From Acidovorax sp. (GTDB taxonomy: Bacteria; Pseudomonadota; Gammaproteobacteria; Burkholderiales; Burkholderiaceae_C), in assembly GCA_031277855.1 (NCBI GenBank), contig JAITLO010000008.1:248001-312000 (forward strand): a stretch of DNA of 64,000 nucleotides. The letters are read 5' to 3'. Both the position numbers and the translations under genes were made by a program. Below, one piece after another: positions 4,813-27,875 of this stretch. The notes beneath the pieces were generated by a model that was given only the letters and a program-made list of their open reading frames with translations, made no database searches and had not been told where the DNA came from. Positions within the stretch are counted from its first letter, which is position 1; each line of letters starts with the position of its first letter.

Positions 4813-5211
4813 ATGAAGTCTTCTTCGCTCTTGCTGTCCGGTGCTTTGGTGGTTGGTGGTCTGGCGCTGCCCAGCATGGCAGGGGCGGCCAGCCTGTCCT
4901 TTCTGAACCACACCATCACCAACCGCATTCCGGCCAAGGATGTACCGGCGTTTCAGGCCACGGTGGCCGAGGTGCTGAACCAGTCGGCCGATGGCCAGAC
5001 CACGCAGTGGAGCAGCTCCGAGGGCGTGCCGCGCCGGGCGCCGGTGCAGGCCGCGCTGACGCCGCTGCAGACCACGGAGACCAAGACCTTCAGCGCCTGC
5101 CGCCTGCTGAATGCCGATATCCGCCAGCACAAGTCGCAAGAGACCTGGAAGTTCTGGTTCTGCAAGCAGGAAGATGGCAGCTGGAAGGCCAGCGGCGGGA
5201 TACCCAAGTAA
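4813..5211 (+). CDS. Small secreted protein with surface-antigen-like C-terminus
   Basis: A 132-residue protein with a signal peptide (MKSSSLLLSGALVVGGLALPSMAGA). The mature part ends with a Cys-containing block, ACRLLNADI then FWFCKQEDGSWKAS. This resembles the C-terminal segment of rickettsial 17-kDa-type surface antigens, where a CxxxDGSWK pattern closes the domain; two Cys could form a disulfide. The glycine-zipper part of that family is missing, so this is an outlier or only a local resemblance. The stop codon is followed immediately by a GC-rich dispersed repeat. Function unknown; export is the firm prediction. Confidence 0.65.
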   Translation: MKSSSLLLSGALVVGGLALPSMAGAASLSFLNHTITNRIPAKDVPAFQATVAEVLNQSADGQTTQWSSSEGVPRRAPVQAALTPLQTTETKTFSACRLLNADIRQHKSQETWKFWFCKQEDGSWKASGGIPK

Positions 5212-9562: not shown

Positions 9563-10414
9563 TCAGTCGTTCTTCTTGCGCTTGAAGAAGCGGCCAATGC
9601 CGGCGAACAAGGCCACCACGGCAGCGGCAATGAACTTCCAGCCAGCGGCCAGGAAGCCGCCAATCACGCCCCACAGGCCTTTTTTGGTGGCCACGGCAGC
9701 GGCGCCGCCCAGCACCAGGGCGCCCAGGCTGAAGGCGGCCAGCTTGTCACCGTTTTTGAACTCGGCGTAGCTCAGACCGCTGTTGTACTGAAAGCCTGTG
9801 AGCAGCTTTTTGAATTCCTGGGTGTCTTGGCCCAGCGTGTCGACATCGGACACCAGGGTGGCGCTCATCACACCGGTACGGCCCAGAATGCGCGAGGTGT
9901 AGTTCACATTGCGCTGACCCGATTCATCACGCAGGCGCAGGCCCCATTCCAGGCGGCGTGTGCTTTCGTCATAGTGGGGCGGGACTTCCCAGCCCTCGGT
10001 ATAGACCGCTTCCAGGCCCAGTCGCTGGCGCTCCTTGTTGCTCTCCTTGTCGTCGGCCTGCATGGACTTGAGCAGCTCGGCCGCGTCGATTTTCTCGTCG
10101 TCCTTCACATAGCCGGTCTCATCGAAGGAGAACACCACAAACCAGTCCAGGGACTTGGGCGCGATCAGATAACGGTCGCTGCTGGGCGGGTTGCCCATGG
10201 CCTGCAGCAGCGTGGAGGTATCGGCCGGGTCCAGAAAGGCAAAGCCTTCCGGAATGGCGATGCTGGCTTTGCCGGCAATATGGCCCTGGCCTTTTTCCAC
10301 CCAGTGCAGCTGCTGAATTTCCGGAGGCAGCTCGTTGGCAGGCTCGGCATTCTTGGCCCAGGCGCCCAAAGACAGTGACAGGCCGAGCACAGCTGCGGCG
10401 ACGGACTTGAACAT
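9563..10414 (-). CDS. DUF2167 family membrane protein
   Basis: A 283-residue protein matching DUF2167. A signal peptide (residues 1-20, ending GAWA) is followed by an exported domain with IPEGFAFLDPADTSTLLQAMGNP and the conserved FSFDETGYVKDDEKIDA. Near the C-terminus are two hydrophobic glycine/alanine-rich helices (about residues 225-272) and a basic tail, FFKRKKND. Most of the protein should therefore face the periplasm, anchored at the C-terminus. The biochemical role of the family is not established. It carries its own terminator and stands apart from the transporter upstream. Confidence 0.85.
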   Translation of the reverse strand: MFKSVAAAVLGLSLSLGAWAKNAEPANELPPEIQQLHWVEKGQGHIAGKASIAIPEGFAFLDPADTSTLLQAMGNPPSSDRYLIAPKSLDWFVVFSFDETGYVKDDEKIDAAELLKSMQADDKESNKERQRLGLEAVYTEGWEVPPHYDESTRRLEWGLRLRDESGQRNVNYTSRILGRTGVMSATLVSDVDTLGQDTQEFKKLLTGFQYNSGLSYAEFKNGDKLAAFSLGALVLGGAAAVATKKGLWGVIGGFLAAGWKFIAAAVVALFAGIGRFFKRKKND

Positions 10415-23990: not shown

Positions 23991-25004
23991 CTAGCGCGCT
24001 GCCAGCACCTCGGGGTTGATGATGTTGCTGGGCTGGCCGTTGACGAAGTTCACGATGTTCTCGAAAGCGGCACCAAAGTACAGCTCGTAGTTGTCCTGCT
24101 CCACATAGCCGATGTGGGGGGTGCAAATGCAGTTTTCCATGCGCAGCAGCGCATGCCCTTGCAAGATGGGTTCGGTCTCAAACACATCGATGGCGGCCAT
24201 ACCGGGGCGCCCCTGGTGCAGGGCCGTGGCCAGGGCGTCGGGCTCCACCAGCTCGGCGCGGGAGGTGTTCACGAACAGGGCCGTAGGCTTCATCAGCGAC
24301 AGATCATGGCGCGTGATGCAGTGCAAGGTATCTGGCGTGAGCCGCAGATGCACCGAGACGATATCGCTGCTGGCAAAAAAGTCTTCGCGGGAATAGGCCA
24401 CCTGGTAGCCATCTGCCAGGGCCTGGGCGCGCGATGCCTCGCGGCCCCAGACCTTGACGCCCATGCCAAAGGCGCGCGCATAGCTGGCCACCAGTTGGCC
24501 GATACGGCCATAGCCCCATATGCCCAGCGTGCGGCCGCGCAGCACTGTGCCCAAGCCGAAGTTGGCGGGCATGGATGCGGCCTTGAAGCCTGACTGCTGC
24601 CAGGCGCCATGCTTGAGGTTGGCAATGTACTGGGGCAGACGGCGGGAGGCCGCCATAATCAGCGCCCAGGTCAGCTCGGCGGGGGCCACGGGAGAGCCTA
24701 CGCCTTCGGCAACGGCAACGCCGTAATGGGTGCAGGCCTGCAGGTCAATGTGCGGGCCTACGCGGCTGGTCTGCGAAATCATCTTCAGGCGCGGCAGCTT
24801 TTCTAGCAGCTGGCGCGTGATGTGGGTGCGCTCGCGGATCAGCACAATGATGTCGGCGTCGCGCAGACGCACGGCCAACTGGCCTTGGCCCTTGACGGTA
24901 TTGGTATAGACCTTGGCGTTGAAGGCATCCAGGCGGCCGGCGCAGTGGAGTTTGCGAACTGCGTCTTGGTAGTCGTCCAGAATCACGATGTTCATCGGCT
25001 GCAT
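23991..25004 (-). CDS. D-2-hydroxyacid dehydrogenase family protein
   Basis: A 337-residue NAD(P)-dependent D-isomer-specific 2-hydroxyacid dehydrogenase. The Rossmann motif GIWGYGRIG is followed by the catalytic triad region: Arg in NTSRAEL, Glu in DVFETEP and His in TPHIGYVE. The chain resembles phosphoglycerate dehydrogenase-like proteins without the regulatory ACT domain. Substrate cannot be set from sequence. It stands alone. Its upstream region carries a 12-mer shared with the region upstream of the PLP dehydratase at 55362, plus three related GCGTA-type repeats, both listed separately. Confidence 0.9.
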   Translation of the reverse strand: MQPMNIVILDDYQDAVRKLHCAGRLDAFNAKVYTNTVKGQGQLAVRLRDADIIVLIRERTHITRQLLEKLPRLKMISQTSRVGPHIDLQACTHYGVAVAEGVGSPVAPAELTWALIMAASRRLPQYIANLKHGAWQQSGFKAASMPANFGLGTVLRGRTLGIWGYGRIGQLVASYARAFGMGVKVWGREASRAQALADGYQVAYSREDFFASSDIVSVHLRLTPDTLHCITRHDLSLMKPTALFVNTSRAELVEPDALATALHQGRPGMAAIDVFETEPILQGHALLRMENCICTPHIGYVEQDNYELYFGAAFENIVNFVNGQPSNIINPEVLAAR

Positions 25005-25570: not shown

Positions 25571-25689
25571 GGCTGATTCCTTTGAGTCGCGCGGCACGGA
25601 TTGCCGTTGTGCTGTTTTTGTATAACGTTTGTAGAGCCCAAAGCGTTGACAAGATGAGCCGGCCAAAACGCCTTGGATACACTGCATGC

Positions 25690-25782
25690 AGAAACGTGCC
25701 AGAGCGGCTGAATGGGCGCAGCGCCCGCAAGGGACTGCGCGGGTCCATGATGACCTCGCAGGTTCGAATCCTGCCGTTTCTT
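25690..25782 (+). ncRNA. tRNA-Ser-shaped RNA with a GCAA-capped helix in place of the anticodon loop
   Basis: A 7-bp acceptor stem (AGAAACG 25690-25696 with CGTTTCT 25775-25781) is followed by TG, then a serine-type D arm (CCA 25699-25701, loop GAGCGGCTGAA, TGG 25713-25715). A class II variable arm (GGTC 25742-25745 with GACC 25752-25755) and a perfect T arm (GCAGG-TTCGAAT-CCTGC, 25758-25774) follow. The anticodon stem CGCAG/CTGCG (25717-25721, 25735-25739) encloses 13 nt, not 7. These can fold as CCC-GCAA-GGG, a GNRA tetraloop hairpin. No CCA is encoded. It therefore looks like a tRNA body without a usable anticodon: either a decayed tRNA-Ser or a purposeful tRNA mimic. Confidence 0.7.
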
Positions 25783-25830
25783 GTGTGCACCGTGAGGTAG
25801 GCAGCTGTGCTGGATGGGCATGAAGGGAGC

Positions 25831-26831: not shown

Positions 26832-27875
26832 GTGTCCCATCGCCAACCCGTCCGCGTGAACGATATCGCGCAATTCACCACCCTGATCGATGCCCGCACG
26901 CCGGCGGAATTTGCGCTGGACCATATTCCCGGGGCCATCAACTGCCCGGTGCTGAGCAACGAAGAGCGGGTGGAAATAGGCACCATTTACAAACAGGTCA
27001 GTCCTTTTGAAGCCAAGCGCTTGGGCGCGGCCATGGTGGCAGCGAATCTGGCGCGCCATCTGCATGACACCTTCAGCGACAAGCCTGCGAACTGGAAACC
27101 GCTGGTGTACTGCTGGCGCGGCGGCCTGCGCAGCGGCTCCATGGTCACCTGGCTGCGTTTGGTAGGCTGGGACGCGCAGCAACTGGCCGGCGGTTACAAG
27201 GCTTTTCGCAGCCATGTGATGGCGCAGTTGGAGGCCTTGGTGCCCCAGCTGCAGCTGCGTGTGCTGTGTGGCGCTACTGGTAGCGCCAAGACCCGGGTGC
27301 TGCATGCCCTGCAGCAGCAAGGGGCGCAGGTGCTGGATCTGGAAGGGCTGGCCCGGCACAAGGGCTCGCTGCTGGGCGGTTTGCCCGGCGTGGAGCAACC
27401 CAGCCAAAAGCATTTCGACACCTTGCTCCATGCCCAGCTGGCGCAGCTGGACCTGTCGCGACCGGTGTATGTGGAGGGTGAAAGCCCCAAAATAGGCCGC
27501 GTCGCGCTGCCGCTGGGCCTGGTGGAGCATATGCGCCAGTCGCCGGTGGTAGAGCTGCGTGCCACGCATGCAGCGCGGCTGGCCTTTTTGCTGCAGGACT
27601 ATGCCTATCTGGGCGATGACGCCGAAGGCCTGGCGCACAAGCTGGGCTATCTCAAGGAGCTGCAGGGCCGAGAGCGCGTGACGCGCTGGCAGCAGTGGGC
27701 ACAGGAGGGTGCATTGCCGCTGCTGTTTGACGAGCTGATGCAGCTGCACTACGACCCGCAGTACGCCCGCTCGCAAGCCAAGCATTTCAGCCACTGGGGG
27801 CAGCGCCAGGTGGTGGAAAGCGATGATTTGACCGAGCACGGCATTGCTGCGGTGGCAGCGCAGATGCTGGCATAG
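26832..27875 (+). CDS. mnmH: tRNA 2-selenouridine synthase MnmH
   Basis: A 347-residue enzyme that converts 2-thiouridine to 2-selenouridine at tRNA position 34, via a geranylated intermediate. The N-terminal rhodanese domain has LIDARTPAEFALDHIPGAIN and the catalytic Cys in VYCWRGGLRSGSM. The C-terminal P-loop domain has GATGSAKT, PVYVEGESPKIG and the closing substrate-binding block. It starts with GTG at 26832; no better ATG is available. selD is not in this window. Without selenophosphate the enzyme can still geranylate, so Se use is not proven here. Confidence 0.93.
   Translation: MSHRQPVRVNDIAQFTTLIDARTPAEFALDHIPGAINCPVLSNEERVEIGTIYKQVSPFEAKRLGAAMVAANLARHLHDTFSDKPANWKPLVYCWRGGLRSGSMVTWLRLVGWDAQQLAGGYKAFRSHVMAQLEALVPQLQLRVLCGATGSAKTRVLHALQQQGAQVLDLEGLARHKGSLLGGLPGVEQPSQKHFDTLLHAQLAQLDLSRPVYVEGESPKIGRVALPLGLVEHMRQSPVVELRATHAARLAFLLQDYAYLGDDAEGLAHKLGYLKELQGRERVTRWQQWAQEGALPLLFDELMQLHYDPQYARSQAKHFSHWGQRQVVESDDLTEHGIAAVAAQMLA

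Follow-up and report, generated by a model that had tools for sequence, protein, structure and literature searches.

We propose that the RNA encoded at 25690..25782 on the plus strand of the window (the whole 64,000-nucleotide stretch of DNA analysed here) belongs to a small RNA family, found mainly in Comamonas, that would derive from a duplicated tRNA-Ser gene that abandoned decoding. Judging from sequences and predicted folds, the family RNA probably does a job other than reading the genetic code. The reading that we put forward, tentatively and at somewhat less than an even chance, is a retained non-decoding tRNA-Ser mimic that would work through its acceptor, T and variable-arm body, perhaps as a decoy; pseudogene decay, an RNA-processing element and mobile cargo jointly hold over half of the weight. 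Should the family prove to be a true non-decoding derivative, a tRNA gene would have been repurposed within one genus, where intact, worn and dying copies stand side by side.

The RNA is 93 nt long and ends with U at the discriminator position, 73. All of its parts lie on the plus strand. The acceptor stem found by folding (5' strand 25690..25696, starting with A1; 3' strand 25775..25781, with no CCA downstream) is paired at 7 of 7 positions, and the T arm (25758..25774, GCAGG-UUCGAAU-CCUGC) at 5 of 5 around the T loop TTCGAAT, in a class II (Ser/Leu-type) cloverleaf. The long class II variable arm (25741..25757, by folding) differs in length among members. In the covariance-model alignments the D arm (25699..25715) has a 3-bp CCA/UGG stem and the loop GAGCGGCUGAA, whereas the minimum-energy fold of 25690..25782 pairs GCC/GGC inside the D arm instead. 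The 6-bp anticodon stem, again from the fold, consists of GCGCAG (25716..25721) and CUGCGC (25735..25740). It closes 13 nt, CGCCCGCAAGGGA (25722..25734), that replace the anticodon loop and fold as CCC-GCAA-GGG: a 2x1 internal loop (C-G opposite A) leads into a capped 3-bp hairpin. An intron-containing tRNA was rejected as an identity, since removal of this hairpin yields no anticodon when read from the sequence. The fold energy of the RNA alone is modest (z of -1.8 against shuffles, 9 of 200 shuffles being equally good), and the minimum-energy D arm is non-canonical; the case for the RNA is therefore carried by tRNA models and homologs.

Against the Rfam tRNA model (RF00005) the RNA scores 33.6 bits (gathering threshold 29), and it is the weakest of the 65 tRNA matches of its own genome, the next weakest scoring 48.7 bits. 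The first-pass annotation had described a tRNA-Ser-shaped, CCA-less RNA with intact arms, its decoding loop replaced by CCC-GCAA-GGG; sequence and fold agree with this description. Another Rfam family can be set aside: at E≤1 in 4 kb there were two matches, RF00005 at this RNA and an unrelated sub-threshold miRNA match at 24398-24475. ARAGORN mislabels or misses genes of the family. It calls the window RNA tRNA-Cys with an anticodon 'gca' forced from the tetraloop, labels a prophage-side relative tRNA-Tyr, detects 2 of the 8 Comamonas copies described below, and misses the copy in G139, a genome of another genus.

We compared the RNA with the tRNAs of its own genome. All 28 distinct tRNAs from 38 fetched loci end in an encoded CCA, which the window RNA does not have, although CCA could still be added to it enzymatically; A as the first base occurs in 1 of these 28. 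The genome has tRNA-Ser genes with GCU, UGA, GGA and CGA anticodons, a set that we take to cover the serine codons under the usual wobble rules. In a comparison with eight Ser and Leu tRNAs of its own genome, the window copy best matches tRNA-Ser-GCU, with 66 identical positions. The G003 and G139 copies are also nearest to Ser-GCU (the G003 copy has the D arm of Ser-GCU letter for letter), and the G032a and G463 copies match Ser-GGA slightly better. The tip, CCC...GGGA, resembles the Ser-GCU anticodon stem, CUCCC...GGGAG, and we infer that the anticodon arm may have been lengthened below the former stem-loop. A T stem of the CAGG...CCUG type is common to all nine members of the family and absent from the four own tRNA-Ser, hinting at a single origin of the nine. 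In a tree of 52 columns, a weak one from a short alignment, native Ser tRNAs cluster apart from the family, but Leu falls on the G139 copy. The window RNA resembles canonical tRNA-Ser (RF00005; GCU) in its class II cloverleaf, D and T arms, 7/5 branch and long variable arm; it differs in having a 13-nt hairpin-forming loop on a lengthened anticodon helix where the canonical molecule has a 7-nt loop with a serine anticodon, in its A1 and U73 in place of G1 and G73, and in having no encoded CCA.

A DNA search of 61 genomes found good copies only in one relative, G032 (88% identity over 120 query bases and 83% over 113); G022 gave merely a short T-arm match. We refer to the window copy and the two G032 copies as group A. 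One G032 copy (L073:9367-9461, minus strand) precedes the same lipoprotein gene as the window RNA, and the other (L074:10793-10886) adjoins a broken tyrosine integrase, with endolysin and Rz-like spanin genes about 1 kb away. Compensated changes distinguish the three in their acceptor and T stems and in the tip hairpin, where CCC-GGG becomes CCU-AGG; the prophage-side copy has a single A-C mismatch at pair 1-72, and its minimum-energy fold with flanks is not the full cloverleaf. A GNRA tetraloop is present in two of the three (GCAA and GUAA), the third having AUAC. Between the window copy and the syntenic G032 copy, 10 of 95 columns differ, including one compensated A-U/G-C change, and no pair is lost save for a 2-nt length change in the variable arm. 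The two loci can be aligned over the upstream gene end with about 300 nt (to 25326), a 120-nt island around the RNA (25672..25791; 123 BLASTN columns at 88%) and the lipoprotein gene; the remaining intergenic DNA gives no good match, whereas the RNA is 88% identical.

TACACT, a -10-like hexamer read directly at 25678..25683, stands 6 nt before A1 at all three group A copies, and none of the three has a sigma-70 promoter by consensus scan. By reading and folding, both G032 copies are followed by a GC hairpin and T run, of which the scan flags that of the prophage copy only; the window copy has no hairpin of this type. Among 27 lipoprotein loci examined (30 fetched), two carry the RNA, and G004 has the same three neighbours as the window RNA, yet the RNA is absent. 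The L073 copy is flanked by about 4.2 kb that is absent from the window and that shares two blocks (562 bp at 80% and 186 bp at 76%) with DNA beyond the broken integrase. Elsewhere in G032, at L005 ~1501-1600, a fragment comprising a T arm and acceptor 3' strand, with a strong hairpin and T run behind it, is possibly a truncated third copy; it lies about 5 kb from a third stretch, which shares 469 bp with the lysis region.

A covariance model built from the three group A copies, R1, was searched against 53 genus genomes and yielded five further odd members (in G463, G003, G459, G002 and G016) of 105 to 147 nt. The distribution is patchy, with members in 7 of the 53 genomes by model and length; the remaining R1 matches are of normal tRNA length, as checked with ARAGORN where loci were returned. 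R1 and a further model, R2, score the window copy at 109.3 and 96.2 bits, respectively, this copy being part of the training set of both. The five further members, group B, share one locus: they follow a thioesterase/GNAT gene and a 26-aa mini-ORF, starting about 20 nt after the latter, and face an hbpS-like gene in convergent orientation. Beyond the anticodon stem, every one of them has a C-N / A internal loop and then a CC(C)-(G)GG step, and the tips extend from four nt up to a hairpin of about 18 bp, the long ones without a GNRA tetraloop. At minimum energy, the G459 and G016 cores do not fold into full cloverleafs. A pattern scan of genome contigs returned 20 stretches, two of them from Comamonas testosteroni with already-known copies.

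Thirteen genomes have an hbpS ortholog (at least 76% identity), and at this locus four carry an intact copy, one a worn copy (G016, with a changed T loop) and four a decayed copy, while in four the RNA is undetectable at E 1. Of the seven acceptor pairs, the decayed copies in G029, G020, G012 and G464 retain 3, 3, 3 and 4, respectively, and their T loops are broken, yet they keep the lower arm (5 or 6 of 6 pairs) and the variable arm (6/6). Where the RNA is undetectable, G034 and G015 retain the GNAT gene and the mini-ORF, G466 retains just the GNAT gene, and both are missing from the G021 locus as read. Since the mini-ORF persists in G034 and G015 without detectable RNA, it is not dependent on the RNA. 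This conserved, hydrophobic reading frame of 26 residues (MGRIMTVLCVIGVLAAGYAAYRYGVF and close variants) directly precedes the group B RNA (L107 ~9640-9720; L108-L111) and was found by tblastn at 11 of the 13 hbpS loci, two of them RNA-less.

Our alignment of the eight Comamonas copies (one worn, G016) was fitted to the R1 structure, itself built from three of the eight, so that pair counts are biased; in it, 98.3% of 232 stem cells are paired and both-sided change is seen in 15 of 30 pairs. Four of five measures, including pairing, both-sided change and covariation score, are reached by none of 500 shuffles, and the fifth, further pair types, by 36 of 500. Sliding the registers lowers pairing to 44-54%. 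All three group A copies and the four intact ones of group B keep 28 to 30 of the 30 pairs; the window copy has 28, the missing two resulting from its difference in variable-arm length. Across the nine intact or worn members (eight Comamonas copies and that of G139), position 1 is always A, pair 1-72 is A-U in eight, and the lower anticodon stem is always paired 6/6, while the tip ranges from 3 to about 18 bp. As both the length and the sequence of the tip vary, the GNRA loop is not the conserved part of the molecule.

These comparisons bear differently on what had been claimed from the single sequence. The suggestion that selection retains the shape is supported by compensatory changes among relatives, the CCC-GGG to CCU-AGG tip change included. 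The GNRA loop is not supported as the point of the design, since the tip varies in length and sequence, and the idea of a conserved receptor-binding GNRA loop was rejected for want of conservation: the tetraloop is found in two of three group A copies and not in the long group B tips. Decayed homologs, which had been named as a sign against the proposal, do occur at 4 of the 13 group B hbpS-ortholog loci, with four more having no detectable copy, but not among the closest copies of the window RNA: pairing loss across arms, as in a pseudogene, is seen in G029, G020, G012 and G464 and not in the window copy.

The ninth member comes from G139, which belongs to another genus of the same family and is the one genome searched of that genus, and lies between fusA and tuf, the genes of EF-G and EF-Tu. 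It has A1, a 7/7 acceptor, a 6-bp anticodon stem, a closed loop of 27 nt and no CCA, and it pairs at 26 of 30 model positions (tip step 1/3, D stem 2/3, variable arm 5/6). Upstream of it, a palindrome-like stretch (L161 ~5110-5165) recurs at five other G139 sites with 78-81% identity. We searched R2 against 399 family genomes (141 genera) and 399 order genomes with nine candidates scored per genome, so that member counts are lower bounds. In the family, beyond normal-length matches, only G000, G002 and G139 appeared among the matches listed, and the other family loci fetched were tRNA-Ser by ARAGORN in 28 of 28 cases. In the order, matches at E≤3e-12 comprised two from Comamonas and six others, all six normal tRNA-Ser. 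A DNA search of 399 family genomes matched 128 at E≤0.01, mostly through short tRNA-arm or chance matches. A blastn search with 25670-25800 against phage and plasmid collections gave no match at E≤0.01. A 21-nt pattern matched in 17 of 80 genomes, with no excess over the reversed control, and among 18 loci of this pattern only the known G139 locus scores E≤0.001.

In the mimic reading, the family RNA would be transcribed and would fold like a tRNA. Its anticodon stem would have been lengthened and then capped by a hairpin, while the L-shaped body (acceptor, D/T elbow and long variable arm) was retained. The 1-72 pair and the discriminator belong to the rules of tRNA identity; with both changed and no CCA, the RNA would be a poor substrate or no substrate for charging. 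It may act by binding a protein that recognises the tRNA-Ser body. A tRNA-Ser mimic that is read through the body would suit a gene unfit for decoding whose body is under selection in several species while its tip varies freely. The free tip, of 3 to about 18 bp, also indicates which part of the molecule matters, and a protein partner could be searched for with body and tip mutants.

Among known tRNA-like RNAs, tmRNA is without an anticodon and has a helix in place of the anticodon arm. The window RNA differs from it in having a D arm and a long variable arm and neither a tag reading frame nor an encoded CCA; ARAGORN and Rfam made no tmRNA call on it, both calling tRNA. The bacterial Y RNA YrlA is a tRNA mimic, as we suppose the window RNA to be. 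The ends of YrlA do not lie at the acceptor stem, whereas the window RNA ends there. Identity with YrlA or another Y RNA was rejected: the Rsr/Ro60 partner (TROVE, PF05731) was found in 0 of 7 genomes searched, and the control search matched 1 of 14 named genomes, Deinobacterium chartae. According to the review PMC7609411, which describes Mukai 2017, allo-tRNA-like RNAs are Ser-like with odd arms, and some irregular ones are unusable in translation in E. coli; allo-tRNAs have a 12-bp acceptor branch, 8/4 or 9/3, and anticodons, whereas the window RNA has a 7/5 branch and no anticodon. Phage-encoded tRNAs required for lysogeny and tied to tyrosine-integrase phages have also been described (PMC10865867); they replace a disrupted host tRNA and hence decode, unlike an RNA without an anticodon loop. 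Among the matches listed from open-licence PMC text, no paper describes an anticodon-less tRNA-Ser-like RNA in Comamonas.

Within the mimic reading, the RNA would most likely act as a decoy or competitor, directed at a protein that binds or cuts tRNA and that could not cut this RNA at a loop that is absent. SerRS, RNase P and RNase E, named in the first-pass annotation, would be candidate targets. We favour this mechanism because of the phage-side copy and because the tRNA-like domain of YrlA was proposed to be a competitive inhibitor of an anticodon nuclease (PMC7790460). Members lie at several unrelated loci, one beside phage genes, and in the loci examined no binding partner or common neighbour gene points to a target, the lysis and integrase genes occurring at one copy only. 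A bolder version, which we regard as improbable, would make the family a new class of tRNA-Ser mimic, partly moved by phages, in which the missing loop is the point: an uncuttable and probably uncharged decoy with a free tip, of which only the body is read, directed at anticodon-loop ribonucleases of defence or toxin-antitoxin systems, or at SerRS.

The family could instead be a relic: a tRNA-Ser duplicate, perhaps from phage or mobile DNA, in which the anticodon was lost and decay is under way, the stable GC-rich helices lasting longest. This is fairly unlikely. In its favour, the four decayed group B copies combine broken acceptors and T loops with largely intact lower- and variable-arm helices, and four more hbpS-ortholog genomes have no detectable copy; three of these keep the thioesterase/GNAT neighbour and two of the three the mini-ORF as well. 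The RNA-less lipoprotein neighbourhood of G004 and the lack at the window copy of the hairpin with T run seen at the G032 copies point the same way. Simple decay would not be expected to leave compensatory changes in the acceptor, T stem and tip among the three group A copies, nor 28 to 30 of 30 pairs in seven copies, nor an RNA that can be aligned where its flanks cannot.

We rate somewhat lower the idea that the RNA is a tRNA-shaped punctuation mark in mRNA, cut by RNase P or RNase Z or shielding an end, for which the anticodon arm would be irrelevant. Copies do lie within or at the edge of transcription units, such as fusA-tuf in G139, the interval between the mini-ORF and the convergent hbpS gene in group B, and, in the window, a position some 50 nt ahead of the lipoprotein start; on the other hand, a GC hairpin with a T run follows both G032 copies, and the downstream genes are not the same between loci. 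Still more doubtful is that the RNA gene belongs to a mobile element, either as an attachment-site relic or as phage cargo, and persists because tRNA-like DNA serves integrases. The G032 copy between phage lysis genes and the broken integrase, the blocks shared between the 4.2 kb beside the other G032 copy and the DNA beyond that integrase, and the T-arm fragment near the stretch shared with the lysis region all speak for it. However, reading 10-20 kb by eye around the fusA-tuf copy and those of group B turned up no phage genes, we established no direct repeats at the borders of an element, and base-pair compensation is expected of RNA function and not of a DNA attachment site.

In the window, the RNA lies between a divergent 47-residue ORF and the lipoprotein gene. 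Since the ORF is without a Pfam match and its surrounding DNA does not align with G032, we regard it as unproven. The lipoprotein product has no Pfam or NCBIfam match, its name resting on the N-terminal signal as read. The gene that follows (26832-27875, plus strand) encodes tRNA 2-selenouridine(34) synthase MnmH (NCBIfam); the lipoprotein-MnmH gene order is the same in G032 and in the RNA-less G004 and so does not tie MnmH to the RNA. Four pattern scans of viral contigs gave 15 loci, with other odd tRNA-like RNAs, which we do not assign to the family, at L187, L190, L191, L193, L195 and L197. That at L187:1902-2019 resembles tRNA-Ser but has an anticodon arm that is long and closed, and it directly precedes tRNA-Thr and tRNA-Ile genes. 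At L197:6972-7123 an apparent tRNA is nested in another tRNA-like RNA, and L190 and L191 have the same outer shell with other inserts.
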